Positions 22,123 through 40,479 of a stretch of 64,000 bases of DNA are shown here, piece after piece. The notes under the pieces were generated by a model. The model ran no database searches, was not told the origin of the DNA, and worked only from the letters and a program-made list of their open reading frames with translations. The position numbers were made by a program, and so were the translations under genes. Source of the DNA: Roseobacter sp. MED193 (GTDB taxonomy: Bacteria > Pseudomonadota > Alphaproteobacteria > Rhodobacterales > Rhodobacteraceae); the NCBI RefSeq assembly GCF_000152965.1, contig NZ_AANB01000012.1, forward strand, positions 1-64,000, in the 5' to 3' direction. Positions within the stretch are counted from its first letter, which is position 1. Every line of letters starts with the position of its first letter.

Positions 22123-22266
22123 TCAGGAGTGTTCATCCACAAGGCTCGGCGCGGTGGTCGAGGCTTCGGCAGCCTGGCGCTCTTCATCCGTGAAGAACAT
22201 CCAGACGACATCGGCCTTATTGTGTCTCTTGCATCCAGGGCATGGGTTGTTCGCGTTCTTGCACAT
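22123..22266 (-). CDS. Small Cys-motif protein, 47 residues, unknown
   Basis: An unlisted short frame with an excellent ribosome site (GGAGGAGG, five bases before ATG). The protein starts MCKNANNPCPGCKRHNKAD, continues VVWMFFTDEERQAAE and ends LVDEHS. Cys at 2, 9 and 12 (CxxxxxxCxxC) suggest metal or Fe-S binding. It sits between the lactonase and BKACE in the leftward operon. I do not recognise the family. The strong ribosome site, position in the operon and coding-like composition favour a real gene. Confidence 0.6.
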   Translation of the reverse strand: MCKNANNPCPGCKRHNKADVVWMFFTDEERQAAEASTTAPSLVDEHS

Positions 22267-22295
22267 GGCTCCTCCTCCCGTGCAGGGTTGATCGG

Positions 22296-23153
22296 TCAGG
22301 CAGCCTCCGCCGCCCGCTTCGGCATTTTTTCCAGGGCTTCGACAAAAAACGGGCGGAACCCTTCGGGATGTTCGCTCATCGGGAAATGGCCCAGTTCATC
22401 CATGACGGACAAAGTGGCACCCGGAATTGCCTTGGCCGTGCGCTCGGCGTCTTCCGGCGTACAGGTCAGGTCGTACGCGCCGACGATGATGTGTACGGGC
22501 GTCTGTGCCGTATCGATGGTCGGCAAGCGCGGGATCAGGCTGTCGTCCTTGGTGTAAAAGCTCAGATCGCCCCGGAAGACACCGGGTCCGCTCTGCATGA
22601 ACATCCACAGCGTGTTCCAGCGCTCGGAAGCGGGCGCATAGGGCGAGATATTCGCGGAAACGAGTGCCGCGCCCATTTCGCCGCCGTGAGCGTCAGGGCG
22701 ATGGAACCAGTCAATGTCATACCAGGCGGGCTGGAAATCCGACGCCTCGATCGCGATGAAACCACTGAATTTCTCAGGATGCAGCGCCGCGAGCTGTAGG
22801 GCGATGCGCCCACCCATCGAACAGCCCGCCAGCACGGGACGGTCCAGACCCAACCCGTCGATCACAGCCAGAATCGTCTCGATGTAGGCTTCGGTCGTCA
22901 GCAGGTATTCCTGGGTTTCGAAACCTTCGGGCGGCAGCGACTTGCCGTGCCATGGCATGTCGAACGCGATCAGACGGTTCGACGTCGTGATCTCGGCATC
23001 GTTCATCAGGTGACGCCACTGGCGGGTATCCGCGCCCGCAGTATGCAGGCAGATGACGGGACGGCCTTGTCCCGCCTCTTCGAAATAGATGCGACGGGGG
23101 GCCCCTTCGATCATGACGGTGACATAGCGGCCAGTGATGGGTTCGATGCTCAT
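22296..23153 (-). CDS. pcaD: Alpha/beta hydrolase, probable 3-oxoadipate enol-lactonase (PcaD/CatD-like)
   Basis: A 285-residue alpha/beta hydrolase: CLHTAGADTRQW oxyanion loop near 36, DMPWHGKS, nucleophile elbow GCSMGG (Ser112), acid in IVGAYDLTCTPED and His in DELGHFPMSEHPE. It is slightly longer than the usual 260-residue PcaD. Both pathway branches need an enol-lactone hydrolase and no other candidate is seen, so this assignment is likely but rests on context. Start 23153 overlaps the upstream SCP2-like gene by ATGA. Its N-terminal stretch differs from typical PcaD, so another lactone or ester is possible. Confidence 0.65.
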   Translation of the reverse strand: MSIEPITGRYVTVMIEGAPRRIYFEEAGQGRPVICLHTAGADTRQWRHLMNDAEITTSNRLIAFDMPWHGKSLPPEGFETQEYLLTTEAYIETILAVIDGLGLDRPVLAGCSMGGRIALQLAALHPEKFSGFIAIEASDFQPAWYDIDWFHRPDAHGGEMGAALVSANISPYAPASERWNTLWMFMQSGPGVFRGDLSFYTKDDSLIPRLPTIDTAQTPVHIIVGAYDLTCTPEDAERTAKAIPGATLSVMDELGHFPMSEHPEGFRPFFVEALEKMPKRAAEAA

Positions 23154-23551
23154 GCTGCCACCTCCTCTTTCGCGCGGGCAAGGCCCAAGACTTCCTTGAA
23201 GAAACGCAGGTTTTTCACGAGGCTCAGGATGTCGCCGTCGATCCGGCCACGGCCGATCTTCACCAGGCCAAATATGTCGTGGAAACCGGGTTCGGGACGC
23301 GCCTGCCAGAACTTGTCCAACGCTTCTGCATCTGTCCGCAACGCAAAGCGCCAAGGCGTTTTGCGGCTGGGACCTTCGACGACGGACACGATGTGACCTT
23401 TCTCGAAGGTCAGGTAGTATTCGTTCCCGTCGATCTCGATCAGAACCGTTTCGGAAAACAACCGGCCAAGGCGCTGCAAATGCGGCGTTGCCTCAAGGCG
23501 CGTTTGAATTTGCTTGAAGGTATTGATCACCTTGGTCTCCCATGCGTTCAT
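23150..23551 (-). CDS. SCP2-like small protein of unknown role
   Basis: A 133-residue protein with one central beta-rich core (VLIEIDGNEYYLTFEKGHI, then VVEGPSRKTPWRFALRTD) that resembles the SCP-2 sterol-carrier fold, which holds small hydrophobic ligands. It has no signal peptide or membrane segment. It is the first gene of the leftward operon and is coupled to the lactonase gene by an ATGA overlap. No muconolactone isomerase (CatC) gene is found in the window, and this protein occupies the place where one would be expected. It is not similar in sequence to CatC. Confidence 0.6.
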   Translation of the reverse strand: MNAWETKVINTFKQIQTRLEATPHLQRLGRLFSETVLIEIDGNEYYLTFEKGHIVSVVEGPSRKTPWRFALRTDAEALDKFWQARPEPGFHDIFGLVKIGRGRIDGDILSLVKNLRFFKEVLGLARAKEEVAA

Positions 23552-23602
23552 AAGCTATCCCATAGCTGCCACGATCAGCCGCGCCGGTGCCATGCCATAG
23601 AG

Positions 23603-23618
23603 GGTATGGCTCAATACT
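23603..23618. promoter_or_regulatory. Operator-like motif, distal copy in the catA divergent promoter
   Basis: GGTATGGCTCAATACT fits the GGTAT-N7-TACC pattern at all but the last base and lies 69 bases from the stronger copy, 52 bases before the start of the leftward SCP2-like gene. Paired sites in a divergent promoter are usual for LysR or MarR control. Confidence 0.4.
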
Positions 23619-23687: not shown

Positions 23688-23796
23688 GCAGCGGGCATTG
23701 GGTAAGCACGGGATTCGGTGAAGTCTGTTTTTGCGACGAGGGGCATTGACGCACCTCGCTACCGGACATTCAGACTGCCAGGAGGAGGAAATACCC

Positions 23797-24672
23797 ATGG
23801 GCATCGTCAACCAAGACAACATCACCGACGTCGTGATCGACAGCCTCGGCAAGCATGGCGACATCACTGACCGCGAGCGTGAGATCGCAACCGGCCTGAT
23901 CAAGCACATGCACGCCTTCGTGAAGGACGTGAAACTGCAGCACGACGAGTTTCTTGCCGCCTGCGATTACCTTGCCCGCGCCGGCAAGCTTTGCGACGAC
24001 AACCGCCAGGAATTCATCCTTCTGGGCGATATTCTCGGCATCGAGGTTCTGGTCGACATGATGACCAACCCGGTCGAAGGTGGCGAAAGCGAGTCCACCG
24101 TGCTCGGCCCATTCTACCGTGAGAACCCGCCGGTCCTGCCCAAAGGTGCGTCGACCATCCAGAAGCACTTCGACAATGAGGAAACCGCTTATTTCGAAGG
24201 CTACATCAAGGATGAGAACGGCAACGGCATCGCAGGCGTGACGCTCGATGTCTGGGAAGATGCGCCAAACGGCATCTACGAAAACCTCGACCCGGATCAG
24301 CCAGAATACAACCTGCGGGGCCGTTTCGAGACCGACGAGAACGGCCACTACGCCTTTGTTGCAGTCCGCCCGGTCCCCTATCCGATCCCGGATGATGAAA
24401 CTGCTGGCGAGCTGCTGCGCTTCATGGGTCACCACCCGAACCGCCCCGGCCACATGCACTTCATTATTTCCAAAGACGGTTACCGCCCGCTGATCAGCCA
24501 GATCTATGATGCAGACAGCGCGTGGCTGGACGAAGACAGCGTGTTCGCCGTCAAAGAAAGCCTGATCGGCAAGTTCAAGCCTGCCGACAAGGACCTGGGC
24601 ACCGACCTGCATTTCGAATTCGACTTCGTGCTCAAGGAAGGCGTCTCCGAGCAGGCCGTCGCCGCCGAATAA
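23797..24672 (+). CDS. catA: Catechol 1,2-dioxygenase (CatA)
   Basis: A 291-residue intradiol dioxygenase with the helical N-terminal linker domain typical of catechol-type enzymes, then STVLGPFYRENPP near 108, LDVWEDAPNGIY (first Tyr ligand), GRFETDENGHYAF (second Tyr region) and GHHPNRPGHMHFII (two His ligands). It opens catechol to cis,cis-muconate. GGAGGAGG precedes the ATG at 23797; a longer frame upstream has no site. The benzoate dioxygenase genes nearby make catechol the likely substrate, though hydroxyquinol-type dioxygenases look similar. Confidence 0.85.
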   Translation: MGIVNQDNITDVVIDSLGKHGDITDREREIATGLIKHMHAFVKDVKLQHDEFLAACDYLARAGKLCDDNRQEFILLGDILGIEVLVDMMTNPVEGGESESTVLGPFYRENPPVLPKGASTIQKHFDNEETAYFEGYIKDENGNGIAGVTLDVWEDAPNGIYENLDPDQPEYNLRGRFETDENGHYAFVAVRPVPYPIPDDETAGELLRFMGHHPNRPGHMHFIISKDGYRPLISQIYDADSAWLDEDSVFAVKESLIGKFKPADKDLGTDLHFEFDFVLKEGVSEQAVAAE

Positions 24673-24768: not shown

Positions 24769-25668
24769 ATGAATTTCAAACAGCTGACCTATTTTATAGC
24801 GGTCGCCGAAGAACTGCATTTCGGGCGCGCCGCCGAGCGCCTCGATATGGCGCAACCGCCACTCAGCCGACAGATCAAGCAGCTCGAGGACGAACTGGAG
24901 GCAATTCTCTTCAATAGGGGGCGCAGCGCGATCACTCTGACACAGGCCGGCGAACGCCTCCTCAAGCGGGGAAAGGCAATCGTGGCGCAGTTGGAGGATA
25001 CACGGCTCGAAGTGCGGCGGCTGGGCCAGGGAGCGGAAGGCCGCCTTCGGATCGGCTTCGTCGGATCGGCGACATTCGGAATTCTGCCAAACATCATCCG
25101 GTCATACCGCGCGAATTACCCGGAGATGAATCTCAGCCTTACTCCGATGAACAACGCGCAACTCTACAGGGCGCTCGTCTCTCGTGAAATAGACGTGGCT
25201 TTTGCACGCCCGACGCTCAAGGACCCCGAGTTCCTTTCAAAACATCTCGTCGAGGAAAAACTGATCCTCGCTTTGCCAGATATCGTTGACACGGGTAACC
25301 GCACGGTCGCGAAACTCGAACGCCTCATGACCCATAATCTGATCCTCTATCCAGAACGCCCCCGTCCGAGCTATGCGGATATGGTGATCAAAGCTGTTGA
25401 AGATGCGGGCTTCAAGGCACCGATGCGCCTGTGGTGCATGGATCTTCAAACCGCCTTGAGCCTCGTCGCGGTCGGAGAAGGGGTATGCATCGTTCCGGAG
25501 TCCGTCTCCAACGCGCCGCGCAAAGGTATGAAGTTCCTCAACATCGAGCCGGAGATCGCGCGCACCGAGCTATCGGTCAATTACCGTGTCGATGAACAGG
25601 GTGTACACGTGAAGAATTTCGTCAACATCGCACAGAAAGTGGCGCGAAAGAGCCCTGTGAAGAAATAG
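24769..25668 (+). CDS. catR: LysR-type regulator, CatR/BenM-like
   Basis: A 299-residue LysR protein with the helix-turn-helix at residues about 2-60 (FKQLTYFIAVAEELHFGRAAERL...QPPLSRQIKQLE), a wording shared with CatR, BenM and CatM. The effector domain (IGFVGSATFGILPNIIRSYR, then VSREIDVAFARP) has the pattern of the muconate-responsive group. It follows catA after a terminator and faces benD. It probably senses cis,cis-muconate and/or benzoate and controls the ben and cat genes. It is a candidate binder of the recurring GGTAT-N7-TACC motif. Confidence 0.8.
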   Translation: MNFKQLTYFIAVAEELHFGRAAERLDMAQPPLSRQIKQLEDELEAILFNRGRSAITLTQAGERLLKRGKAIVAQLEDTRLEVRRLGQGAEGRLRIGFVGSATFGILPNIIRSYRANYPEMNLSLTPMNNAQLYRALVSREIDVAFARPTLKDPEFLSKHLVEEKLILALPDIVDTGNRTVAKLERLMTHNLILYPERPRPSYADMVIKAVEDAGFKAPMRLWCMDLQTALSLVAVGEGVCIVPESVSNAPRKGMKFLNIEPEIARTELSVNYRVDEQGVHVKNFVNIAQKVARKSPVKK

Positions 25669-25786: not shown

Positions 25787-26566
25787 CTAGCCGAGATCCC
25801 CTCCGCCAACAGGAACAGTGACGCCCGTGATGTAAGACGCATCTTCCGACGCCAGAAACAGGATTGGCCCAACCTGCTCGTCAAGCGTGCCGTAGCGCTT
25901 CATCAAAGAGGACTGGATGGTCTGGTCGACGATGGTCTGGTACCAATCCTCACGCTGTTCCTCCTCCGCATTCGGATTGCGCGGAACGACGCGCGGAGGC
26001 GCTTCGGTGCCGCCAGGCGCTGTCGCAACAACGCGGATCCCGCGTTCGGCCACTTCCCAGGCAAGACTTGCCGTGATCGCGTTGACCCCGCCCTTTGCCG
26101 CAGCATAAGGGACGCGGTTCAAACCGCGCGTGGCGATCGACGAAACGTTGACGATCACACCGCTTGCGCATGGCAACATATGCTCGATCGCGGCGCGGCA
26201 GCAGAACAGCGTTGGAAAAAGCGACCGACGTACTTCGGCTTCGATCTGTTTCGGCTCGTAGTGCTCATATGGCTTGGCCCAGATCGTGCCGCCAACGTTG
26301 TTCACCAGAATGTCGATCCGGCCCCACAGGTCCACAGCCTTTTGCATGGCTTTTTCGCACCCAGCCCATGTTTCCAGATTGACCGAGATCGCCTCGGCCG
26401 TGCCGCCCGCGTCTCGGATCGCGGTGACCACGTCCTTGCGGGCGGGCGAACGGTCTACGATCAGCACGCTGGCACCTTCACTGGCTGCGCGTTCTGCAAC
26501 GCGGCGACCGATGCCTTGCGCGGCACCGGTTACGACCATGACCTTGTCTTCGAAACGACGTGTCAT
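25787..26566 (-). CDS. benD: Benzoate diol dehydrogenase (BenD), SDR family
   Basis: A 259-residue short-chain dehydrogenase: VVTGAAQGIGRRVAE (NAD binding, residues 11-25), DILVNNVGG, then Ser in VNVSSIATRG and the YAAAKGG catalytic Tyr/Lys pair. The size and the PVGGGDLG end fit BenD, which oxidises 1,6-dihydroxycyclohexadiene-carboxylate to catechol and CO2 with NAD+. It overlaps the benC stop by ATGA and is the last gene of the catB-benABCD operon. Confidence 0.9.
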   Translation of the reverse strand: MTRRFEDKVMVVTGAAQGIGRRVAERAASEGASVLIVDRSPARKDVVTAIRDAGGTAEAISVNLETWAGCEKAMQKAVDLWGRIDILVNNVGGTIWAKPYEHYEPKQIEAEVRRSLFPTLFCCRAAIEHMLPCASGVIVNVSSIATRGLNRVPYAAAKGGVNAITASLAWEVAERGIRVVATAPGGTEAPPRVVPRNPNAEEEQREDWYQTIVDQTIQSSLMKRYGTLDEQVGPILFLASEDASYITGVTVPVGGGDLG

Positions 26567-27585
26567 GCGGCTTCCTCAGCGGCCTCGGTCGGGTTGAACT
26601 TCTCATAGAAGAAGTTGGCGGGCGCTACGCCAAGTTCGTCGAAATGCGTGCGCACTGCGTCGACCATCGGAGGCGGGCCACACAGATAGACGTCACAATC
26701 GCCGTCATTCAAATCCTCGGCCGTCACGTGATCGGTGACGAAGCCCTTGCGCTCGTGGGCGTCTTCCTCGGCCGCAAGGATTGTTATCACAGTGACATTG
26801 CCGATCTTTTCAGCAAGCGCGTTGACGCGGTCAAGTTCCACAAGATCAGCGGCGCGGGTCACGGCATAGTAGAGGACAATGGGTTGGTCAGAGCCCTGCT
26901 CCGCCACCTGTTCCAACATCGACAGAAATGGCGCCAGTCCCGTTCCGCCCGCGAGCCACAGTTGTGCGCGTTCGATCGGGCGCAGGTAGAAAGCACCCAT
27001 GGGGCCGGTTGCCGTCAATGCATCACCCGCTTTGACCTGCCCGCCGAGGTAGCTGCTCATCACACCACCCGGCAGGTTGCGGATCAGGAAGGTCGCTTCG
27101 TCGGCACCCGGCGCAGACGAGAAAGAGTAAGACCGATGCTTATCCGTTCCCGGAACCGTCAGGTTCACGTATTGGCCCGGCAAAAAGCCGATGGGTTTGG
27201 ACAACTTCACCCGAAGGCCGAAAGAGGTCTCGGAGAGTTGGTCCACACCTTGCACTTCAGCTTCGACAGCTTCCGGCGCGGTTTTGCAGATTGCAGACGA
27301 GGCCGGGACGCGCACGACGCAATCGCTTTCAGGCGTCATCTGGCACGTGAGCGCATAGCCCTCTTCGGCTTCCTCGTCGCTCATGGATTCGTCCATGTAG
27401 AATTCCAGCTCGTACTCGCCTTTCTCGACAAAGCACTTGCAGGTACCGCAGACGCCGTCGCGGCAATCCATCGGCAGATTGATTTTCTGACGGAAGGCCG
27501 CATCGGTCACCTTCTCATCGTCATCGCACTGGATGATGCGCGTCACACCATCTTCAAAATTCAGGGCAATGTTGTAGGTCGTCAT
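26563..27585 (-). CDS. benC: Benzoate 1,2-dioxygenase electron transfer component (BenC)
   Basis: A 340-residue reductase. The N-terminal plant-type [2Fe-2S] domain has CRDGVCGTCKCF and a fourth Cys in YALTCQMTP. The FAD domain has RSYSFSSAPG, the NAD domain has GGTGLAPFLSML and a C-terminal VYLCGPPPMVDAV. It passes electrons from NADH to the Rieske centre of BenAB. Domain order and length match BenC/XylZ. It is followed by benD with a 4-base overlap. Confidence 0.93.
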   Translation of the reverse strand: MTTYNIALNFEDGVTRIIQCDDDEKVTDAAFRQKINLPMDCRDGVCGTCKCFVEKGEYELEFYMDESMSDEEAEEGYALTCQMTPESDCVVRVPASSAICKTAPEAVEAEVQGVDQLSETSFGLRVKLSKPIGFLPGQYVNLTVPGTDKHRSYSFSSAPGADEATFLIRNLPGGVMSSYLGGQVKAGDALTATGPMGAFYLRPIERAQLWLAGGTGLAPFLSMLEQVAEQGSDQPIVLYYAVTRAADLVELDRVNALAEKIGNVTVITILAAEEDAHERKGFVTDHVTAEDLNDGDCDVYLCGPPPMVDAVRTHFDELGVAPANFFYEKFNPTEAAEEAA

Positions 27586-27657: not shown

Positions 27658-28185
27658 TCAGGTGTGATAAACGTCGATCACGTGGTGGATGTGATCGTTT
27701 TTCAGGACCACCTTCTTGTCGGTGATCAGTGGCTTGGGACCGCTGGTGTCGATCGTGTAGAACGACGTGCCCCAGTGCTGGTCGGTCTTGCCATAGCGAT
27801 AGCTCAGCGTCTGCCAGTTGAAACGTAGCTTGATTTCACTGCCTTCCCGGCTCAGCACCTCGATGCCCGACAGGTAGTGGTTGGTGCGCGGCTCCGGCAG
27901 AGAGGTCGCCGACGACCGGTCTGTCTTGATCCGGAAAACACGGTCCTCAATCCCCTGCTTGTTGGGGTAATACATGAGAGACATTTCGTTCTGCGGGTCT
28001 TCCGTCAGCGTGTCGTAGTCATCCCACGCCGGCATCCAGAACGGGCAGTCCTTGTGATAGAAGGTCAGCCAGGTGTCCCATTCGCGATCGTCCAAAGCAC
28101 GGGCCTCTGCGAAGAGAAAAGCCTGTATTTCGTCATAGCTCATGGCCGTGGCGGCGTCATTGCGTTCAAGTGTTGCGGTATTCAT
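27658..28185 (-). CDS. benB: Benzoate 1,2-dioxygenase small subunit (BenB)
   Basis: A 175-residue ring-hydroxylating dioxygenase beta subunit. Family segments are EARALDDREWDTWLTFYH, CPFWMPAWDDYDTLTEDPQNEMSL-like wording (split as CPFWMPAWDD and DPQNEMSLMYY) and RVFRIKTDRSSA. It has no metal site and supports the catalytic alpha subunit in an alpha3beta3 enzyme. It starts 12 bases after benA. Confidence 0.94.
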   Translation of the reverse strand: MNTATLERNDAATAMSYDEIQAFLFAEARALDDREWDTWLTFYHKDCPFWMPAWDDYDTLTEDPQNEMSLMYYPNKQGIEDRVFRIKTDRSSATSLPEPRTNHYLSGIEVLSREGSEIKLRFNWQTLSYRYGKTDQHWGTSFYTIDTSGPKPLITDKKVVLKNDHIHHVIDVYHT

Positions 28186-28197: not shown

Positions 28198-29586
28198 TCA
28201 TTCAGCCGCGACAGCCGCGCCGGGTGCTGTTTCGCGTTCCTTGGCGATGGCTTCGCCCATGCGCTCGGACCAGTTGCTGTGCTGGATGACGAAGAGACCT
28301 TCGTCCTCGGTGCGGGCACCGGACATGACCGGGTTGATGCCCAGGGCCTTGGCGTCTTCATCCGGGCCTTCGATCCATTGGGTTGCGCCACGGGTCAGGT
28401 CATTCCACTTTGCATGGGATGCCCCGGCATAGCCGCGCTGCGTGGCCCGGAATTCCTCTGTGTCGTCAGGTGTCGCCATGCCGGAGGCATTGAAGAAATC
28501 CTCGTATTGGCGGATGCGGCGGGTGCGCGCTTCCTGGCTCTCGCCCTTGGGGGCGATGCAGTAGATGGTGACCTCGGTTTCGTTGACGCTGATCGGACGG
28601 AAGACGCGGATCTGCGAACTGAACTGGTCCATCAGGAACACATTCGGATAAAGGCAGAGGTTGCGCAGCACGCCAACCATCCAGTCAGCCTTGGTCTTGC
28701 CGAACTTCTCGGTCCATTCCTCGAGCCGCGGATAGCCGGGCCGATTGGTCGGGTCCGCCCATTCGGTCCAAAGCAGGATGTGGCCGTTCTCATAGGCGTG
28801 GAACCCGCCGCGCTGCTTGGCCCATTTCGAGGCGTCGGTCGCCTTGATGTTGTCTTCCTTGCCATCATCCGTGCGGTGCGCGGTGGTGGCAACATAGTTC
28901 CAGTGCACGGCCGAGACGTGGTAGCCGTCCGCACCGTTTTCGGCCTGCAGCTTCCAGTTGCCGTCATAGGTATACGTTGACGATCCGCGCAGCACTTCCA
29001 GACCCTCATCGGCCTGATCAACCATGATGTCGATCATCTTGCGGGCTTCGCCAAGGTACTCTTCCAGCGGCTTCACATCCGCATTCAGCGACCCGAACAG
29101 GAAACCGCGATAGCTTTCGAACCGAGCGACCTTGGTCAGGTCATGGCTGCCATCCTTGTTGAACTGCTCAGGATAGCCCGCGCCCTTCGGATCCTTGACT
29201 TTCAGGAGCTTGCCGGTGTTCGAGAAGGTCCAGCCGTGGAACGGGCAGGTGAAGGTCTTCTGGTTGCGGCGCTTGAAGCGGCAGAGCTGCGCGCCCCGGT
29301 GTGAACAGGCATTGACCAGCGCGTGCAGTTCGCCGTCCTTGTCGCGGGTGATAACGACGGGCGTGCGACCCATGGTCAGCGTGAAATAGTCGCCCGGCTC
29401 CGGGATCTGGCTCTCATGGGCCATGTACATCCAGTTGCCTTCGAAGATGTGCTTGATCTCAAGCTCGAACAGCTCTTCGTCGGTGAAGATGTCCCTACGG
29501 CAACGGAAAATGCCGTTCTCCGGGTCGTCCTGGATCGCGCCATCAAGGCGCGCCTCGAATTCATCGAGATTCGATTGAGTAAACAT
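28198..29586 (-). CDS. benA: Benzoate 1,2-dioxygenase large subunit (BenA)
   Basis: A 462-residue Rieske oxygenase. The Rieske cluster is bound by CSHRGAQLC (Cys-x-His) and CPFHGWTF (Cys-x2-His) near residues 92-116. The catalytic Fe site contains [15 protein letters not shown] (two His). The substrate-domain and length agree with BenA. With BenB and BenC it dihydroxylates benzoate to the cis-diol. GAGGAGGACCAC precedes the ATG. catB lies 71 bases upstream on the same strand, so catB-benABCD is probably one transcript. Confidence 0.95.
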
Positions 29587-32077: not shown

Positions 32078-33244
32078 TCAGTACGCCCGCCCCCGCGCGG
32101 ACACAGGCCAGACGGTTTCGACTTTGCCGTTGCGCACGCCGACATACCAATCATGCACGTTGGCCGTCGGATCACAGTGGCCGGGCACAAGCTTCAGCTT
32201 TTCATTGACCTTCAACACGCCCTTGGGGTCGGCGATCACGCCGTGCTCGTCCGAGCATTTCACGTACTCAACATCATCGCGCCCGTAGATGAACGGCAGT
32301 CCGCTGTCGACGGATTGTGCTTTGAGACCCGCGTCACAAATCGCCTTGTCCGCCTTGGCGTGGCTCATCACGCTGGTTAGGATGAAGAAGGCATTTTCCC
32401 ATTCACCGGCATCGATCCGTTTTCCGTCCTGGTCAAGGATGCGGCCATAGTCTGCGTCCATGAATGCATAAGAGCCGCACTGGAGTTCATTGTAGAGACC
32501 CGAATTCGACTCGAAATAGTAGGAACCTGTCCCGCCGCCCGACACGAGATCGGTCTCGATCCCCTCGTCTTTCAGCGCGTTCACGGCATCCTGAACCTGC
32601 CTAATAGCCGTGTCGATCTTGGCCTTGCGGTCGTCAAAGCTGTCCATGTGCTGCATCGCGCCCTGATAGGCCTGGATGCCGCGATAGGTCAGATTGTCGG
32701 CCGCGACGACGGCCTTGGCGATCTCGACAACCGCCGGTGTTGTCGTGACGCCACAGCGCCCTGCCCCGCAGTCGATCTCGATGAAGACGCCCAGCTCTGT
32801 CCCGGCATTTTTCGCCGCCGACGAAAGGTCGGCAACACTGGCCACATCGTCGACGCAGACAATAACTTCGCCGCCGCTGAACTTCGGCAGTTGGACAAGT
32901 CGGGCGATCTTACCCGGATCGCGAACCTGGTTGGAGACCAGTATTTCCTTGATGCCCGCGCGTGCGAAAACTTCCGCCTCGGAAACCTTCTGACAGCAGA
33001 CGCCAATCGCGCCGCCAATTTCCATCTGCAGCTTCAGCACATCGACCGACTTGTGCATCTTGCCATGTGCGCGGTGCCGCATGCCATGCGCCTTGGCATA
33101 GTCACCCATTTTCTTGATGTTACGTTCAAGCGCGTCCAGATCAAGGACCAACGCAGGTGTCTGGATATCGGCCGCATCCATGCCGGGCTTGGCGGGAATA
33201 TCGAAACCAACTTCGTAGGCGTCGAAATCAATAGAATCTTTCAT
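32078..33244 (-). CDS. bhcC: Beta-hydroxyaspartate aldolase (BhcC), D-threonine aldolase fold
   Basis: A 388-residue PLP enzyme of the alanine racemase / D-threonine aldolase fold (fold type III). The PLP Lys is expected in RHRAHGKMHKS near residue 58; FIEIDCGAGRCG, SGGGTGSYYFESN and a C-terminal PGHCDPTANVHDWYVGVR (His/Asp metal ligands) are hallmarks. BhcC joins glycine and glyoxylate to (2R,3S)-beta-hydroxyaspartate. Length matches the Paracoccus enzyme as remembered (387). The start follows AAGGAGACTTCCC. A D-threonine aldolase acting on other hydroxy amino acids is the alternative. Confidence 0.83.
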   Translation of the reverse strand: MKDSIDFDAYEVGFDIPAKPGMDAADIQTPALVLDLDALERNIKKMGDYAKAHGMRHRAHGKMHKSVDVLKLQMEIGGAIGVCCQKVSEAEVFARAGIKEILVSNQVRDPGKIARLVQLPKFSGGEVIVCVDDVASVADLSSAAKNAGTELGVFIEIDCGAGRCGVTTTPAVVEIAKAVVAADNLTYRGIQAYQGAMQHMDSFDDRKAKIDTAIRQVQDAVNALKDEGIETDLVSGGGTGSYYFESNSGLYNELQCGSYAFMDADYGRILDQDGKRIDAGEWENAFFILTSVMSHAKADKAICDAGLKAQSVDSGLPFIYGRDDVEYVKCSDEHGVIADPKGVLKVNEKLKLVPGHCDPTANVHDWYVGVRNGKVETVWPVSARGRAY

Positions 33245-33258: not shown

Positions 33259-34215
33259 TCAGCCCAATGCCCAGGGCAATTTGTCCAGATCGACGTTGCC
33301 GCCGGTGATGATGATGCCAACCCGCTTGCCCTCGAACGCGTCGGGGTTCTTGAGAATGGTCGCGAGCGGGACGGCAGATGACGGCTCCATCACGATCCGC
33401 AAATGCTTCCAAATTAGCTTCATCGCATCGATGATTTCTTGTTCGGACGCCGTGTAGATCTCGGAGACGTGGTTTGACACGAAATGCCAGGTCAGTTCCT
33501 TGAGCGGCACCAGCAGGCCATCGGCGATGGTCTTGGGCGCGTCATCGGCGATGATGTGTCCCGCCTTGAAGCTGCGGTAGGCATCGTCGGCCTGCTCTGG
33601 CTCGGCCGCGATCACCTTGGTTTGCGGGGCCAGGGTTGAGAGTGTCAAGCATGTGCCCGAGATCATGCCGCCGCCGCCAATTGGCGCCACGACCATGTCG
33701 AGACCGTCAGTCTGCTCCATGAACTCCTTTGAACAGGTGCCCTGTCCCGCAATCACGCGGGGATCATTATACGGGTGGACGAAATCGCCGCCTGTCTTCG
33801 CTTGAACTTCGGCAAAAGTCGCCTCGCGTGATGTGGTCGATGGTTTGCATTCCGTGATCTTGCCACCATAGCGGCGCACCGTATCCTTCTTGGCCTGTGG
33901 TGCGGTGCGCGGCATCACCACGTTGCAGGGAATGCCGCGCAGCATTGCCGCATAAGACAGGCAGGACGCATGGTTGCCCGAAGAATGGGTCGCAACGCCC
34001 TTTTCGGCCTGCGCGTCATCCAGCCCGAAGACCGCATTGGTGGCCCCGCGTACTTTGAACGCACCGGGTTCCTGGAAGTTCTCGCACTTGAAGAAGAGTT
34101 GGCAACCCGCCAGGTCACTCAGATAGTCGGATGTCCGCACCGGCGTGCGGCGGATATGCGGCGCGATCCGGACATGCGCAGCGAGCATATCGTCGTAGGT
34201 TGGGATGTACATCAT
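33259..34215 (-). CDS. bhcB: Beta-hydroxyaspartate dehydratase (BhcB), threonine dehydratase fold
   Basis: A 318-residue PLP enzyme of fold type II. The PLP Lys lies in GAFKVRGATNAV near 53, the phosphate-binding loop is VVAPIGGGGMISG, and SSGNHASCLSYAA is the substrate loop. It resembles serine/threonine dehydratases and hydroxyaspartate dehydratase. In the beta-hydroxyaspartate cycle BhcB turns hydroxyaspartate into iminosuccinate. Its ATG overlaps the stop of the DadA-like gene (ATGA), and bhcC follows 14 bases later, so the genes are tightly coupled. Confidence 0.83.
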   Translation of the reverse strand: MMYIPTYDDMLAAHVRIAPHIRRTPVRTSDYLSDLAGCQLFFKCENFQEPGAFKVRGATNAVFGLDDAQAEKGVATHSSGNHASCLSYAAMLRGIPCNVVMPRTAPQAKKDTVRRYGGKITECKPSTTSREATFAEVQAKTGGDFVHPYNDPRVIAGQGTCSKEFMEQTDGLDMVVAPIGGGGMISGTCLTLSTLAPQTKVIAAEPEQADDAYRSFKAGHIIADDAPKTIADGLLVPLKELTWHFVSNHVSEIYTASEQEIIDAMKLIWKHLRIVMEPSSAVPLATILKNPDAFEGKRVGIIITGGNVDLDKLPWALG

Positions 34216-35495
34216 ACGGCTCCCTGAGATGCTAGAGTGGTGGGCGTTCTCGCCGACGTTGTCTTTGAGCAGTTGACTGTATTGGACGCGGCGACGGTCT
34301 CGGCCACCATCTCCGCGGTGACGGCGGACAGGGTCCAACCCAAGTGGCCATGTCCGGTGTTGTAGAACACACGGTCACGCGCGCCCTGCCCTACCCTGGG
34401 CATCATATTCGGCATCATCGGGCGCAGGCCCGCCCACGGGATCGCGTGCTCGGTGCTCACATCGGGAAAAAACCGTTCGCACCACTTCACCAGTGGGCGA
34501 ATGCGGTCATCGCGGATGTCCATGTTATATCCATTGAACTCCGCCGTGCCCGCGATCCTGAAACGATCTTTACCTAAGCGGCTGGTGACCACCTTGGCTT
34601 CATCGTCCAGCAAGCTGATCCATGGTGCGGCGCTCTGGCTTTCTTCGTCATCAAGCCGCACGGTGATCGAGTATCCCTTGACCGGATAAACGTTCACCCG
34701 GTCGCCGACCTGCGCCGCGATGGCGCGGCTTTCTACGCCCGCACAGACAACAATGCCGTCAAAGGTCTCGGTCTGGCTTTCGTTGTTCCGGCTCCAGGTG
34801 AGGCGCACCTCTTTCTTGTCCACGGCAAGCGCCTCGACATCAGTCCCGAACCGCAGCACCGCGCCACCCTTCTCGATGGATTTGGCGAGGCCCGTTGTGT
34901 AGCGGTGAATGTCGCCGGTAAAGTCGCTTTCGGTGTAATAGCCGCCGTAAAACTCTCCACTGAGCGCGGGTTCGATCTGCCGAACTTCTTCGGGGGCAAC
35001 CGCGCGGCGGTCCAGCCCGCCCTCGGCCAACAGCGTGTTGACCTCGGTCGCGTGATCGAATTCCGATTTGTCGGTATAAATGTGCAAGATACCACGGTTC
35101 TCGCAGTCAAACTCGAATCCGTGGCGCTCGGCTTTGTCGCGCAACAGGCCACGTGCAGCAATGGCCATGCGGGTCGTCTCGACCGTGTTGGCGCGGTATT
35201 GCGGGATCGAGGCCACGAACTCGGCCATCCAGCTGTACTTGTGCCAACTGGGCTTTGGGTTAACCAGCAGCGGTGCCCCGCGGCTCAGCATCCATTTCAT
35301 GCCCTTAAAGACTGTCGACCAGCGGGTCCAGGTCTCGGCATTCGATGCCGAGAGCTGGCCTCCGTTGGCGAAAGACGTTTGCATCGCCGCATAGCGGTTA
35401 CGATCAAACAAGGTGACGTCATAGCCCCGGTCCATCAGGCTGGACGCAGTTGTAACGCCGGTGATCCCGGCGCCGATTACAGCAATTCTGGTCAT
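34212..35495 (-). CDS. DadA-like FAD-dependent amino acid dehydrogenase
   Basis: A 427-residue flavoprotein of the DAO family: IAVIGAGITGVTTASSLMDRGYDVTLFDR at the N-terminus (given in parts: GAGITG binds FAD), TSFANGGQLSASNAE typical of DadA, and a C-terminal FYNTGHGHLGWTLS FAD contact. DadA-type enzymes oxidatively deaminate D-amino acids. Here it is the first gene behind a glycine riboswitch and coupled to bhcB, in the place where BhcA (aspartate-glyoxylate aminotransferase) would sit. It may oxidise glycine or sarcosine-like substrates to glyoxylate; that is inference. Start 35495 follows GGGAGGATACC. Confidence 0.75.
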   Translation of the reverse strand: MTRIAVIGAGITGVTTASSLMDRGYDVTLFDRNRYAAMQTSFANGGQLSASNAETWTRWSTVFKGMKWMLSRGAPLLVNPKPSWHKYSWMAEFVASIPQYRANTVETTRMAIAARGLLRDKAERHGFEFDCENRGILHIYTDKSEFDHATEVNTLLAEGGLDRRAVAPEEVRQIEPALSGEFYGGYYTESDFTGDIHRYTTGLAKSIEKGGAVLRFGTDVEALAVDKKEVRLTWSRNNESQTETFDGIVVCAGVESRAIAAQVGDRVNVYPVKGYSITVRLDDEESQSAAPWISLLDDEAKVVTSRLGKDRFRIAGTAEFNGYNMDIRDDRIRPLVKWCERFFPDVSTEHAIPWAGLRPMMPNMMPRVGQGARDRVFYNTGHGHLGWTLSAVTAEMVAETVAASNTVNCSKTTSARTPTTLASQGAV

Positions 35496-35602
35496 GGTAT
35501 CCTCCCGCGACCCAGGTTTCGTCCTGCCGGATGGCAGGTCCAATCCCCTCTGTCGCAGGTCACGGGCTTTGTCCCGAAACGCACTTCAGATCGCCGCGCT
35601 GA

Positions 35603-35674
35603 TCACAGTCCTTTTGCCTGAGAGGTGCCGGGGGGTTGCTCCTTCGGCGCCGACTGGGTCGGCCTCTCCTGTGA
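35603..35674 (-). ncRNA. Glycine riboswitch, single aptamer
   Basis: Reading leftward, the P1 arms TCACAG and CTGTGA (35669-35674 and 35603-35608) enclose GGAGAGGCC, GGCGCCGAAGGAGCAA and CCTCTCAGGCAAAAGGAC, the conserved blocks of the gcvT glycine riboswitch. Only one aptamer is seen. It lies in the leader of the DadA-like gene, 108 bases before its start. A hairpin CCTGCC-ATCC-GGCAGG (35527-35542) lies between aptamer and start and may be part of the expression platform. It should couple this operon to glycine supply. Confidence 0.92.
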
Positions 35675-35680
35675 CAGCTT

Positions 35681-35730
35681 GGTAGGCTGAAATACCACTA
35701 GATCGCAGGTATTCTCATGTCAAGACTATT
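35681..35730 (-). promoter_or_regulatory. Promoter and operator-like motif of the dadA-bhcBCD operon
   Basis: In the 56 bases between the MarR gene and the riboswitch, TTGACA (35718-35723) is a perfect -35 box; the -10 is weak (TAGTGG after 17 bases). Immediately before the aptamer is GGTATTTCAGCCTACC (35681-35696), which keeps the GGTAT-N7-TACC frame of the shared motif but not its inner CACCC. An additional ATACC-N11-GGTAT inverted repeat (35692-35713) overlaps the promoter. Confidence 0.45.
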
Positions 35731-36219
35731 TTAGCGTGAGCCTTTATTGGTCTCTTGAGTCAACGCGGATTGATAGTCTTCCGAGGTCACCCATGCGCCC
35801 AGACGTGCGAGAATCTCATTGAAAGCCCGCAACTCTTGTGCGGACAGTGGATCCGTCAGGATTACCTCTAATCGATCTGACAAGCGTCGGGCTACTTGCC
35901 GAACCTTTTTCCCCTTCGACGTTGTAGAGAGCAGGAATACGCGTGCGTCTTCGGTAGAGTTTTCGCGCTCAATCAATCCAGAAGCGATCAAATTTTGAAT
36001 GATGCGTGAGGTCAAACTTCTATCAAAACCCGTTATTTTTGAGATTTTCGCGAATGTAGTGCCGGGTGTGTCGTCAATCAGTCGCAAGACACGCAGATCG
36101 CGAATTCGACATCCCGTCTCGCTCAGGAAAATCTCATCATTAGCTTGGATCGCCTCCTGCGCAACGATGTTCAGCCGGTAAGTCAGGCGTTCATTTTTGA
36201 ATGTCTTGTCGCTCTGCAC
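35731..36219 (-). CDS. MarR-family regulator
   Basis: A 162-residue winged helix protein: FAKISKITGFDRSLTSRIIQNLIASGLIERE is the recognition region (about residues 56-86), followed by the wing ARVFLLSTTSKGKKV. MarR proteins bind short palindromes as dimers and release DNA when they bind aromatic acids. It starts at a GTG (36219) and is divergent from the hippuricase-like gene, with the 19-bp palindrome TGATACCGGAAAGGTATCA between them. It is the likely local regulator of hipO-TRAP and perhaps of dadA-bhcBCD downstream. Confidence 0.85.
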   Translation of the reverse strand: MQSDKTFKNERLTYRLNIVAQEAIQANDEIFLSETGCRIRDLRVLRLIDDTPGTTFAKISKITGFDRSLTSRIIQNLIASGLIERENSTEDARVFLLSTTSKGKKVRQVARRLSDRLEVILTDPLSAQELRAFNEILARLGAWVTSEDYQSALTQETNKGSR

Positions 36220-36365: not shown

Positions 36366-37556
36366 ATGTTCACCACCTGGTACGAGACACAAAGCAGAAC
36401 ATCGCAGAACTGGTTGCAGACCCTGCACCGCCATCCAGAGACCGGCTTCGAAGTCGCGCGTACAGCTGCCTTTGTAGCTGATCGTTTGAGCGAATTAGGT
36501 TACACGGTTGTGACGGGCATCGCCGGTACCGGGGTCGTTGGTACACTGCATGGTCAGGACGCGTCACCAGAGTCACCCGGTCGCTGTATTGCATTCCGCG
36601 CTGAGCTTGACGGGCTGCCGATGCAGGAAAAGGCCAAGGTAGACTACGCCTCCGAAGACCCCAGCCGATTTCATGGCTGTGGGCATGACGGACACATGGT
36701 CACCGCGCTGACGGCCGCCGCCTACCTCGCAGAGCATCGGCAATTCGACGGGACGGTCCGCTTCATCTTTCAGCCTGCCGAGGAACTCTTGACCGGTGCC
36801 CGCGCCATGATCGCTGACGGCCTCTTCGATCGTTTCCCCTGCGATGAAATCTACGCGCTTCACAATTCACCTGACTTGCCTGCCGGTCAGGTAGGCATTC
36901 CTACTACGGCAGCTCTGTCTTCGGCGGACAATATCGACGTTACGATCCGTGCCAACGGAGCGCATGGATCCATGCCACACACCGGCGAAGATGCGATCCT
37001 CGCAGCGGCACAACTGATCACATCCGTCCAGCAGGCCACGACCCGTCTGGTGGATGCGCGGGAAGCAGGCGTGATCTCCTTTGGTCTGTTTCAAGGCGGC
37101 ACTGCGCGGAACATTCTACCAGAGGCTGTCCGGCTGGAAGGCACGATGCGCACGACGTCCTCAACGGTGCGTGACCGCCTCGCCGATCTGCTTCAGGACG
37201 CTGTACGCGCGACCGAGCTGCTGTTTGGCGTTCTCATTGAGATCGACGTCGAAAAGGTGGCACCCGTCACGTTGAACGACCCCACATGCGTATCCGCTGC
37301 CGTCTCATCCGCAACTCGCGTTGTGGGGGTGGAGCGTGTCGTCGAAAACGCACGCAACTTGATGGCCTCCGAGGATTTCTCCGAACTCTCGTCGATCGTC
37401 CCCGGAGCGTATTTCTTCATCGGCCAAGGCGGCTACGCCCCGCACCACCCCGAATTCGTCTTTGACCCGGACATCATCCCGGTCGGAGCCGCTATCTTTG
37501 CCGATCTGGCAAAGCTCCGCACGAGCAAGACGCTCAACTCTCACAAACTGACCTGA
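36366..37556 (+). CDS. hipO: M20 amidohydrolase, probable hippurate hydrolase
   Basis: A 396-residue M20 metallopeptidase of the hippuricase / amidohydrolase group. FRAELDGLPMQEK and HGCGHDGHMVTAL carry metal ligands; FQPAEELLTGARAMI holds the catalytic Glu; HGSMPHTGEDAI lies in the lid domain, and MASEDFS is the C-terminal motif. Such enzymes cut N-acyl amino acids. A benzoate operon on one side and a glycine-controlled operon on the other make N-benzoylglycine the natural substrate, giving benzoate and glycine; this is inference. Start 36366 follows CGGAGG. dctP follows 28 bases later. Confidence 0.7.
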   Translation: MFTTWYETQSRTSQNWLQTLHRHPETGFEVARTAAFVADRLSELGYTVVTGIAGTGVVGTLHGQDASPESPGRCIAFRAELDGLPMQEKAKVDYASEDPSRFHGCGHDGHMVTALTAAAYLAEHRQFDGTVRFIFQPAEELLTGARAMIADGLFDRFPCDEIYALHNSPDLPAGQVGIPTTAALSSADNIDVTIRANGAHGSMPHTGEDAILAAAQLITSVQQATTRLVDAREAGVISFGLFQGGTARNILPEAVRLEGTMRTTSSTVRDRLADLLQDAVRATELLFGVLIEIDVEKVAPVTLNDPTCVSAAVSSATRVVGVERVVENARNLMASEDFSELSSIVPGAYFFIGQGGYAPHHPEFVFDPDIIPVGAAIFADLAKLRTSKTLNSHKLT

Positions 37557-37584: not shown

Positions 37585-38622
37585 ATGATCAACTTCACCA
37601 CAAAAATGCTCAAGGGCGCGGTCGCCGCAACAGCCCTCGTGTCCGCCACGGCTCAGATCGCCAGTGCCGAGGTTCTGACCATGTCGTCCTGGGTGCCGCC
37701 GACCCATTTCGTCCACACCGATTTCCTGGTGCCTTTCACCGAGAAAGTGGCCGAAGTCACCGAAGGCCGTGTGACCGTTACAATCCTGCCCGCTCCGCTG
37801 GCCAGCCCGCCCCAGCACTGGGAACTCGCCCGCAACGGTGTCGCGGACATCACCTGGGGCAACTTCACATATGAGCCCGAGCGCTTTGTGTCGATGTGGT
37901 TTGCCGAATTCCCCAATGCAGGCACCAATGCCGAGGCTCAAAGCCGTGCCCTTTGGCAAACCTACGAGACTTACCTTGCCGACAACGCAGCCTTTGACGG
38001 TGTCAAAATGCTTGGCGTCGGCATGTTCGGTGGTGGTCAACTGCATCATGGGTCCGAGACTGTGACCTCGCCTGAGGACGTGGCCAACGTAAAGTTCCGC
38101 ATGGGTGGGCCGATTCAGGAAAAACTGCTGACGTCGCTTGGTGCGGTTCCTGTCGCAGCACCGGCGACGAAGGCCTATGAAATGCTGGAAAGCGGTGTCA
38201 TCGACGGCTCCCTGCACACCATGGAATCCGTGGTGAACTTCCGCCTCGAGGACAGCCTGAAGCACCACACGATTTTCCCGAACGGTTTCTACGACGCGAC
38301 CTTCTTTGTCATCATGAATGGCGCCAAGTGGGACGGCCTTTCAGACGAAGACAAGGCCGCCATCGAAGGCATCATCGGTGAAGAGCTTTCGGCGGCATGG
38401 GGCAAAAACTTCGACCTGCAGAACCCTGCCGCAACCGAGAAACTGGGCGCAGCTGGTCATGACATCGTGGAGGCCTCGCCGGAGCTGATCGCTGCGGTGG
38501 ATACGATCTACGACACAATGGTCGCCGACTGGGTGGAAGCCGCGAAAGCCGCCGGTGTCGCGGATCCGCAGGCGATGCTGACGTTCTACAACGACACCTA
38601 CAAGTCGCTCGCTGGCGAATGA
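37585..38622 (+). CDS. dctP: TRAP transporter substrate-binding protein (DctP), second set
   Basis: A 345-residue periplasmic binding protein with signal peptide (MINFTTKMLKGAVAATALV...ASAEV). The DctP region has VTSPEDVANVKFRMGGP with the ligand-binding Arg and SGVIDGSLHTMESV. It starts 28 bases after the hydrolase gene, so both are likely one transcript and this TRAP probably imports the hydrolase substrate. GGGAGG lies before the ATG. Confidence 0.9.
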   Translation: MINFTTKMLKGAVAATALVSATAQIASAEVLTMSSWVPPTHFVHTDFLVPFTEKVAEVTEGRVTVTILPAPLASPPQHWELARNGVADITWGNFTYEPERFVSMWFAEFPNAGTNAEAQSRALWQTYETYLADNAAFDGVKMLGVGMFGGGQLHHGSETVTSPEDVANVKFRMGGPIQEKLLTSLGAVPVAAPATKAYEMLESGVIDGSLHTMESVVNFRLEDSLKHHTIFPNGFYDATFFVIMNGAKWDGLSDEDKAAIEGIIGEELSAAWGKNFDLQNPAATEKLGAAGHDIVEASPELIAAVDTIYDTMVADWVEAAKAAGVADPQAMLTFYNDTYKSLAGE

Positions 38623-38641
38623 GCCGAGTGTGAAGCACTAG

Positions 38642-38672
38642 CGGAGGCCGGGAAAACGGCCTCCGATTTTTT
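38642..38672 (+). terminator. Terminator/attenuator after second dctP
   Basis: A perfect 9-bp stem (CGGAGGCCG / CGGCCTCCG, loop GGAAAA) followed by ATTTTTT. It lies within the operon between dctP and dctQ, where partial termination gives excess binding protein over permease. Confidence 0.88.
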
Positions 38673-38689
38673 AGGGAGGAGACAAGATC

Positions 38690-39190
38690 ATGCAGTCCAT
38701 GGCATGGAAAATTCGCCGGGGGGTCGAAACGGTCATGGCACTGTTCCTTCTGGCAATGGTCGCACTGACCTTCGCCGACGTGATCGGACGCCGCATTGTG
38801 GGCAAGCCGATCTACGGGGCAAACGACATCACCGAGCACCTGATGGCGCTGGTCGTATTTGCCGGGCTGCCTTTGGTAACAGCCGCTGGTGCGCATCTCA
38901 CCATCGACCTTCTCGACAAGCTTGTAAGCAAGCCCTGGATGGCGTGGTGGCGCGTGCTGATCTCGATACTTGTGACCGTGGTACTTGCTGTCATCGCATG
39001 GCTCTTCGTGAAGCACGGTTTGAACGCCTCCCGCATTTTCGAAGTGAGCCAGGCTTTGCGCGTTCCCCGGGGGCCACTTTATTTCTTCATGGCCGCAAGC
39101 TGCGCCCTGTCCGCCTTGGCCGCACTGGCCGTCACATTCACCGGCCCGATGGTCGACCCCGAAGACACCCATGAGGAGGAAGCGCTATGA
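38690..39190 (+). CDS. dctQ: TRAP transporter small permease (DctQ), second set
   Basis: A 166-residue protein with four hydrophobic helices and the DctQ stretch FADVIGRRIVGKPIYGANDITE, then VAGAHLTIDLLD-like TAAGAHLTIDLLDKL. It is the small membrane subunit of the tripartite transporter. GGGAGGAGAC precedes the ATG, and its stop overlaps the DctM start by 4 bases. Confidence 0.9.
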   Translation: MQSMAWKIRRGVETVMALFLLAMVALTFADVIGRRIVGKPIYGANDITEHLMALVVFAGLPLVTAAGAHLTIDLLDKLVSKPWMAWWRVLISILVTVVLAVIAWLFVKHGLNASRIFEVSQALRVPRGPLYFFMAASCALSALAALAVTFTGPMVDPEDTHEEEAL

Positions 39191-40479
39191 TTGTCGGCTC
39201 CATCGCTATGATTTCGGCCATACTTTTGGCCTTCCTGCGGGTTCCACTCGCCTTTTCTCTTCTGGCGGTTTCGGTCGCGGGGATCGGTTTTGCAATCAAC
39301 TGGAATATCGCGTTTCAACTCCTTCCACTGACGATCTCGGACGCAGTCTTGTCATATGACCTCGCCGTGGTGCCCATGTTCATCCTGATGGGCAACGTGA
39401 TCTCAAAAACCGGGATCGCGCACGACCTCTTCCGTGCCGCCTATGCCTTCGTTGGCCATGTGCGTGGCGGGCTGTCGCTGTCGACGATGGTCGCCTGTTC
39501 CGGCTTTTCCGCTGTCTGCGGGTCCAGTTATGCCACGGCCGCAACCATGGCCAAGGTCGCCTACCCCAGCATGAAAAAGTACAACTATTCGGACGAACTC
39601 GCGGCAGGCACGATCGCTGCAGGCGGTACATTGGGAATTCTGATCCCGCCATCGATCATCATGGTGGTCTACGGCATCCTGACCCAGACAAATATCGGAG
39701 ATCTGTTCATTGCTGGGGTCATTCCCGGGCTCCTCGGCCTTGCGCTTTACATGATTGCCATTCGCGTGGTCGCCGCGCGCAATCCCGAACATGCACCGCA
39801 AGGCGAACTGACGGCTTGGCCGGACCGGCTGAAGGCACTGTCGGGCATCTGGCCATTCGTCCTGCTATTCGGCCTGATCATCGGAGGCCTCTACGCCAAA
39901 CTGTTCACACCAACCGAAGCAGCTGGCATGGGTGCAGGCCTGGCCATCCTGATCGCAACCTTTCACGGGCGTCTGACCTGGAAAGTGCTGCGGACGGTTA
40001 TCATCGACACGGCCTACACATCGGTATCGCTCTACACGGTCCTCTTCGGCGCGTTGATGCTCTCCAAGCTTCTGACCCTGTCCGGACTTGCGGCAGGTGT
40101 TCTTGCCCTGGTGCAATCTACAGGTCTCGAAGGCTATGCGCTGATTTTCGCGATCATGCTGGTGTTCCTGGTTCTGGGCTGCGTGATGGACTCCATGGCG
40201 ATCATCCTGATCTTTGTGCCGCTCTTCGCGCCGATCGTCGTGTCGCAGGGGTTCGACCTGGTTTGGTTCGGAATCATCGTGATCGTGGTCACTGAAATCG
40301 CGCTCGTCACACCGCCGGTCGGCATGAACGTGTTTGTCTTGAAGGCTGTGCTGCCTGATGTACCGGTCGTTCGCATCTTCAAGGGGCTCGTTCCGTTCAT
40401 CGCGGTCGATGTCGTGCGGTTGGCGCTGCTGGTGGCGTTTCCTGCAATCACTCTTTGGCTGGGTACAACGGTTGGTTAG
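39187..40479 (+). CDS. dctM: TRAP transporter large permease (DctM), second set
   Basis: A 430-residue DctM of normal length with about twelve helices. GGTLGILIPPSIIMVVYG in the first half and ALVTPPVGMNVFVLK near the C-terminus are family signatures. It lacks the long hydrophilic insert of the first DctM in the window. It ends the hydrolase-TRAP operon. Confidence 0.92.
   Translation: MIVGSIAMISAILLAFLRVPLAFSLLAVSVAGIGFAINWNIAFQLLPLTISDAVLSYDLAVVPMFILMGNVISKTGIAHDLFRAAYAFVGHVRGGLSLSTMVACSGFSAVCGSSYATAATMAKVAYPSMKKYNYSDELAAGTIAAGGTLGILIPPSIIMVVYGILTQTNIGDLFIAGVIPGLLGLALYMIAIRVVAARNPEHAPQGELTAWPDRLKALSGIWPFVLLFGLIIGGLYAKLFTPTEAAGMGAGLAILIATFHGRLTWKVLRTVIIDTAYTSVSLYTVLFGALMLSKLLTLSGLAAGVLALVQSTGLEGYALIFAIMLVFLVLGCVMDSMAIILIFVPLFAPIVVSQGFDLVWFGIIVIVVTEIALVTPPVGMNVFVLKAVLPDVPVVRIFKGLVPFIAVDVVRLALLVAFPAITLWLGTTVG

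Follow-up and report, generated by a model that had tools for sequence, protein, structure and literature searches.

Does a gene cluster of Roseobacter sp. MED193, which joins a hydrolase and a TRAP (tripartite ATP-independent periplasmic) transporter to genes for benzoate and glycine utilization, serve the degradation of hippurate (N-benzoylglycine)? Hippurate is a common waste product of animals. The cluster lies in the first 64 kb (hereafter the window) of contig NZ_AANB01000012.1 (C3; 166,719 bases), one of the four contigs of a 4.67 Mb genome. A first-pass annotation had proposed a complete, plasmid-borne module that imports and splits N-benzoylglycine, sends benzoate to catechol and turns glycine into aspartate. 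We found that the cluster is a genuine, recurring catabolic supercluster built of known parts, and its sequence makes it probable that it is a module for hippurate or a close ring-substituted aroylglycine. Import, splitting and two downstream branches, as proposed, are favoured by the neighbourhood, by the co-occurrence in genomes, by the riboswitch and by the binding-protein fold, but the annotation had overlooked that bhcA is missing and replaced.

Gene order and location

On the plus strand, the gene of an M20 amidohydrolase stands together with three TRAP genes. A MarR gene lies between the hydrolase and a glycine riboswitch, in divergent arrangement. The minus-strand order 3' of the glycine aptamer is a flavin adenine dinucleotide (FAD) amino-acid dehydrogenase/oxidase gene (hereafter DAO), bhcB, bhcC, bhcD, catB, benA, benB, benC and benD; beyond benD lie catA-like, PcaD-like, CoA-transferase, 3-oxoadipate:acetyl-CoA cleavage enzyme (BKACE) and BenE genes. 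Families were called with NCBIfam and Pfam profiles, and bit scores are given with the cut-off in brackets. Together with a riboswitch profile, these calls confirmed the genes at the positions described earlier, with one correction: the first gene is not bhcA. The window also contains a ParA-like gene (60611), a RepC-type gene (63338) and a ParB-type gene (45567); contig C3 is therefore a plasmid, as had been stated.

Conservation and co-occurrence in relatives

In a draw of 394 genomes of the family, we searched for the hydrolase at E 1e-110 and for benA at E 1e-200, scoring at most four candidates per genome. The hydrolase was present in six genomes belonging to six genera, and in all six the DAO gene lies 853-871 bases from it. 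benA was found in 15 genomes, with all six hydrolase genomes among them (hypergeometric 1e-9, kinship ignored). An order-wide draw gave the hydrolase in 12 of 390 genomes, 11 of which have benA, the exception being G492.

Moreover, we scanned the contigs of genomes and compared the best 80 M20 loci, comprising 31 orthologs (at least 49% identity) and 49 more distant genes; the locus thresholds were set by us, and DAO was counted at 75% identity or more. The ortholog loci contain benA (17 of 31), DAO (17), a full bhcBCD set (6), MarR (28) and DctM (28), whereas benA, DAO, bhcBCD and TRAP genes were seen in none of the 49 distant loci and MarR in one. benA is present in 15 of the 21 orthologs having at least 8 kb upstream, and DctM lies 3' of the hydrolase in all 27 loci with 3.5 kb downstream. 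Elsewhere in the genome, benA was found for loci L095, L099, L103 and L110. A chance neighbourhood is disfavoured by the co-occurrence in the family draw, by the difference between ortholog and distant M20 loci, and by the control on DAO loci, in which no reference match to ben, bhc or the hydrolase was seen at 33 of 41 other DAO loci (up to ~10 kb on each side).

The order DAO-(bhcBCD)-catB-benA is kept with short gaps in 13 named loci (L087-L089, L092-L094, L098, L100-L102, L104, L105 and L112) as well as in genomes G330 and G369. DAO is combined with bhcBCD in the window, Primorskyibacter, Ruegeria marina, an Ahrensia metagenome-assembled genome (MAG), Roseovarius gaetbuli, Nioella ostreopsis and Gemmobacter aestuarii, and also in G330 and G153, where the hydrolase was not found. 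Two Marivita, two other Nioella, Loktanella, Thetidibacter and a three-member Roseinatronobacter group have DAO with no full bhcBCD set adjacent to it.

The amidohydrolase and its TRAP transporter

The proposed hippurate hydrolase is an M20 (hippuricase/aminoacylase-type) amidohydrolase of 396 amino acids (36366..37556, plus strand; TIGR01891, 315 bits (154); Pfam M20 and M20_dimer). The start at 36366 given by the first-pass annotation fits, seven aligned orthologs starting at the same place. C105, H107, E140, H166 and H360, which we take to be the M20 metal ligands, are invariant in all 34 aligned sequences. The enzyme thus shares the catalytic and dimerisation domains and the predicted metal ligands with HipO and other M20 aminoacylases. 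What sets it apart is its linkage to a TRAP importer and a MarR regulator, in a comparison that included no characterised HipO sequence. Solved relatives include YxeP, an auxin-conjugate hydrolase (1xmb), an N-acylglutamine aminoacylase and further M20 enzymes, and these structure matches were uninformative about the substrate. The MarR-family regulator (35731..36219, minus strand; Pfam MarR), divergent from the hydrolase, is present in 28 of the 30 ortholog loci whose upstream stretch reaches 700 bases or more.

All three subunits of a TRAP system are encoded beside the hydrolase on the plus strand: the solute-binding protein DctP (37585..38622; Pfam DctP), which we propose as an aromatic-acid binder, the small permease DctQ (38690..39190; Pfam DctQ) and the large permease DctM (39187..40479; TIGR00786, 313 bits (268)). 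The PDB chain closest to DctP by sequence is 4p56 (E 6e-60), and 4p56 is also the top structure match of its AlphaFold model (mean pLDDT confidence 86.5); the ligand of 4p56 is presumably mandelate. Among the entries whose title tells the ligand, the next are TarP_Sse with coumarate or cinnamate, marine binding proteins titled 'specific for aromatic acid ligands', and then TarP_Csal, bound to ferulate, coumarate or caffeate; pyroglutamate binders appear only from rank 28. Structures near DctP with a ligand named in the title are thus mostly aromatic-acid binders, and the model points to some aromatic carboxylate as ligand, hippurate not being singled out. The early rank of coumarate, cinnamate, ferulate and caffeate binders likens the system to TarP-type transporters. 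Compared with these transporters (TarPQM; PMC3610893), the window system shows 22-35% identity, is encoded alongside an amidohydrolase and has a putative ligand.

Adjacent to the TRAP genes, the region 40806-44136 carries GST, 4,5-DOPA dioxygenase-type, DoxX/HvfX-like and LysR genes, whose order beside the TRAP system is kept in L087 and L091.

The glycine riboswitch and DAO

A single glycine riboswitch aptamer was detected at 35596..35681 on the minus strand (RF00504, 59.2 bits; gathering score 32). The genome has at least three glycine aptamer matches (150 of 319 first-look candidates scored), namely the one in the window and an adjacent pair on contig C1. The gene following the aptamer, DAO (34212..35495, minus strand; NF009074, 705 bits (494)), occupies the place of bhcA and is proposed to encode a glycine dehydrogenase. 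At E 1e-10 or better it has two PDB matches, both of them glycine oxidases and both weak.

A DAO homolog (E 1e-150) occurs in 42 of the 394 family genomes. We scanned 29 DAO loci besides the window, leaving out 12 lower-scoring ones, and a glycine aptamer adjoins the gene in all 29 (20 of 20 and 9 of 9). Among the hydrolase loci, all 17 that have DAO gave the aptamer, against none of the 14 that lack DAO; the model used was built from 26 aptamers, and some of the tested loci belong to genomes that supplied it. The plasmid loci L001-L004, which have no DAO, gave no glycine aptamer. Glycine is hence a candidate substrate of DAO. In open-access literature, the titles and abstract openings do not, among the matches listed, describe a glycine riboswitch paired with a D-amino acid dehydrogenase.

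The leader between aptamer and DAO (35480-35596, minus strand; 5' untranslated region) is strongly conserved in 14 sequences, the window and 13 others, with the blocks TCTGAAG and ACAGAGGGGA, and the whole DAO leader folds well (z -3.0). It may comprise a degenerate second aptamer, presumably what is termed a 'ghost' aptamer, together with the expression platform.

The bhc genes

Three genes of the beta-hydroxyaspartate cycle follow DAO on the minus strand: bhcB, encoding beta-hydroxyaspartate dehydratase (33259..34206; NF045641, 582 bits (550)), bhcC, encoding 3-hydroxy-D-aspartate aldolase (32078..33244; NF045642, 728 bits (690)), and bhcD, encoding iminosuccinate reductase (30997..31962; NF045643, 581 bits (500)). 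The reactions of these enzymes agree with passages of PMC11323563. All three are equivalog-level matches, and their order is identical to that in the cycle of Paracoccus denitrificans (bhcR, bhcABCD). At E 1e-40, the window gave no match to bhcA or bhcR, the search for bhcR covering the window only. In the whole genome, the top match to BhcA is 37% identical, with 260 bits (650), and a single match to BhcC was obtained at E 1e-10. As the operon has neither bhcA nor a bhcR beside it, we rejected the canonical cycle as a full description. The aminotransferase with 37% identity could do the job of BhcA.

The window differs from the Paracoccus cycle in that the places of bhcA and bhcR are taken by the FAD dehydrogenase gene and the glycine riboswitch, and in the linkage to the hydrolase and ben genes. 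According to passages of PMC11323563, BhcR with glyoxylate is the activator of bhcABCD in Paracoccus. The known cycle takes in glyoxylate, whereas the window operon is apparently fed by glycine, which would also be the compound sensed. Titles and abstract openings of open-access literature, among the matches listed, do not describe bhcBCD without bhcA.

In a comparison of 27 genomes, DAO-type bhcBCD without a BhcA match above 37% was seen in G000, G330, G153 and G396. The nine named genomes that have DAO and no adjacent full bhcBCD set, as well as G369, show a BhcA match of at least 62% and one BhcC elsewhere. No BhcC was found at E 1e-60 in G421, a member of the group lacking DAO.

In a tree of BhcC (32 rows), the DAO-type proteins form a supported group (eight rows with DAO plus one taken from a truncated contig; 100/100), and the Gemmobacter copy sits outside this group among canonical proteins (98/92). 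The trees of BhcB (31 rows) and BhcD (25 rows) do not show this clean split; their labels are mixed and many forks are open, so that exchange with canonical copies explains the BhcC tree equally well. We therefore dropped the idea of two independent recruitments of bhcBCD; from the sequences, exchange with canonical copies is likely.

Two loci show traces of altered genes. In L052 (G153, which has no BhcA above 37%), the DAO match beside bhcBCD contains an in-frame stop, and in L095 (Thetidibacter halocola) a partial bhcB match (76%) lies 3' of DAO near 7480, as if bhcBCD had been lost.

The benzoate branch and other aromatic genes

On the minus strand, catB for muconate cycloisomerase (29658..30797, start taken from the profile match; TIGR02534, 503 bits (335)) is followed by benA (28198..29586; TIGR03229, 795 bits (781)), benB (27658..28185; TIGR03232, 247 bits (226)), benC (26563..27585; NF040810, 510 bits (430)) and benD (25787..26566; NF040811, 435 bits (380)). 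The window thus shares equivalog-level BenA, BenB, BenC and BenD, as well as a muconate cycloisomerase, with the benABCD-cat pathway. The plus strand carries a LysR-type regulator of AlsR/BenM/CatM-like appearance (24769..25668; all NCBIfam matches, among those listed, are below cut-off) and a catA-like intradiol ring-cleavage dioxygenase (23731..24672; Pfam Dioxygenase_C and Dioxygenase_N; profile score 156 bits (359)). Back on the minus strand lie an alpha/beta hydrolase resembling PcaD (22296..23153, start by analogy with L001; TIGR02427, 72 bits (256)), BKACE (21202..22062; NF053568, 500 bits (350)), 3-oxoacid CoA-transferase subunits A (20501..21301, longest frame; TIGR02429, 238 bits (129)) and B (19878..20501; TIGR02428, 320 bits (244)) and a benzoate/H+ symporter, BenE (18677..20008, longest frame; TIGR00843, 333 bits (203)). 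The catA-like dioxygenase and the PcaD-like hydrolase, both below cut-off, are family-level calls. In comparison with the known pathway, the window set sits 3' of a glycine riboswitch operon, contains BKACE and has no recognised CatC. No thiolase was seen among the window genes scanned with profiles.

Between the catA-like and PcaD-like genes lies a conserved gene for a protein of 133 amino acids (23150..23551, minus strand), which is 78-91% identical in eight other loci of seven genomes. We rejected it as CatC, since neither Pfam nor NCBIfam gave a match to it at E 10.

Further aromatic genes are located at 2274-4205, where a phenol-hydroxylase-type FAD monooxygenase is 84% identical to a Leisingera gene near the hydrolase-TRAP unit, and at 5448-15112, with pobA, pcaC, pcaH, pcaG and a further FAD monooxygenase adjoining a second TRAP system. 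At 52204-56646, a frame of 1480 amino acids, which resembles coding sequence in composition and matches no NCBIfam family at E 1e-20, precedes a gene for a Toprim/DUF7146 protein.

Alternative explanations

Several observations weigh against a hippurate module. M20 similarity cannot separate hippurate from other N-acyl amino acids, the best profile for DAO is that of a D-amino acid dehydrogenase, and the clean split seen for BhcC reappears in neither the BhcB nor the BhcD tree. CatC was not recognised, in a weak test confined to the plasmid, in which motif patterns were searched for and selected frames were run against profiles; since no muconolactone isomerase gene was recognised, the description of the module as 'complete' is not established. 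The linkage is also imperfect. Nine of the 15 benA genomes in the family draw lack the hydrolase, and benA is not seen in 14 of the 31 ortholog loci, some of which are cut short by contig ends. In nine of 15 genomes, eight MAGs and the isolate Sulfitobacter undariae (loci L090, L091, L096, L097, L106-L109 and L111), benA was not found at E 1e-150. The Tabrizicola group has ben and no DAO. Of the nine benA genomes without the hydrolase, G369 carries TRAP, MarR, DAO and ben, and G330 carries MarR, DAO, bhcBCD and ben on a contig that starts beside MarR; both gave no hydrolase at E 1e-110. In 17 of the 49 distant loci, all from Bradyrhizobium, a DAO homolog of 58-62% identity, below our threshold of 75%, lies ~7 kb off. 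The check set by the first-pass annotation, whether other genomes show the hydrolase-TRAP unit in contexts lacking ben or bhc, has a mixed outcome: benA is present in 17 of the 31 loci, but Thiothrix MAGs have the unit with neither ben nor bhc nearby, and so does the nearly complete genome G492 of the same family. In G492, MarR-M20-TRAP stands without ben and DAO over ~9 kb, and benA gave no match in the genome at E 1e-60. Cocleimonas MAGs likewise have no ben nearby. As to the Bradyrhizobium loci themselves (for example L123, L128, L134 and L141), the M20 gene near the DAO homolog is distant (~43%), and in each of these four the aptamer model detected a glycine aptamer.

How might these observations be explained otherwise? 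One possibility, which we regard as unlikely, is that the substrate is an aroylglycine with a hydroxylated ring (salicylurate, 3- or 4-hydroxyhippurate) or a different N-aroylglycine, and that benzoate is only one among several acids released. Such a substrate would fit the Leisingera clusters, which lack DAO and in which the hydrolase-TRAP unit adjoins two FAD monooxygenases (L001 and L103; in L001, benA is ~22 kb away), the copy of one of these monooxygenases in the window together with pobA and protocatechuate genes, and the hydroxycinnamates bound by solved TRAP binding proteins near DctP; however, benA lies within the same stretch in 17 of the 31 ortholog loci and Leisingera-type monooxygenases in two. 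It is quite improbable that the hydrolase and the TRAP transporter serve an unrelated N-acyl amino acid, such as an auxin conjugate, and that the glycine and benzoate operons are mere neighbours. The auxin-conjugate hydrolase among the solved relatives, the units of L108, L109 and G492 with neither ben nor DAO nearby, and the joint presence of DAO and ben in G330 and G369 would agree with independent modules, yet the co-occurrence extends across six genera of the family draw, and the 49 distant M20 genes are unlinked at the same thresholds. We consider it very improbable that DAO is a D-amino acid dehydrogenase, in which case the amino-acid half would not be glycine and the Bhc enzymes would serve glyoxylate from elsewhere. 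NF009074 as top profile speaks for this, whereas the aptamer beside all 29 scanned DAO homologs and all 17 hydrolase loci with DAO, as well as the two solved glycine oxidases, albeit weak matches, speak against it.

Proposed mechanism and implications

For the degradation of hippurate or a close relative, we propose that the TRAP transporter would import the aroylglycine and that the M20 hydrolase would cut it into the aromatic acid and glycine. Benzoate would enter central metabolism through BenABCD, the catA-like dioxygenase, CatB, the PcaD-like hydrolase, the CoA-transferase and BKACE. Free glycine would bind the riboswitch and switch the operon, presumably on. Part of the glycine may then be converted by DAO into glyoxylate and ammonia, BhcC would condense the glyoxylate with the remaining glycine, and BhcB and BhcD would turn the product into aspartate with no loss of CO2. 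In this proposal, BhcA would be dispensable because the input is glycine and not glyoxylate.

From DAO to benD the widest gap is ~200 bases, so that a single long transcript is possible. A scan for terminators and promoters between bhcD and catB gave about as many sites as shuffled sequences, which neither supports nor contradicts read-through. We tentatively suggest, as a possibility falling somewhat short of an even chance, that a glycine-fed, BhcA-free bhc route is switched by the riboswitch, that its transcript may reach catB-benABCD, and that the glycine of hippurate thereby acts as a signal for benzoate degradation. A cluster for hippurate, benzoate and glycine is not described in the titles and abstract openings of open-access literature, among the matches listed.

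Overall, if this reading is true, the cluster is a transferable unit that imports hippurate and uses both of its halves, and it would explain bacterial life on hippurate. A riboswitch-controlled form free of BhcA would further show that the beta-hydroxyaspartate enzymes act in the use of glycine as carbon source as well, and would lead from glycine to aspartate while conserving carbon. Moreover, the predictions reach a wider pair of riboswitch and DAO, the latter found in 42 of the 394 genomes of the family.

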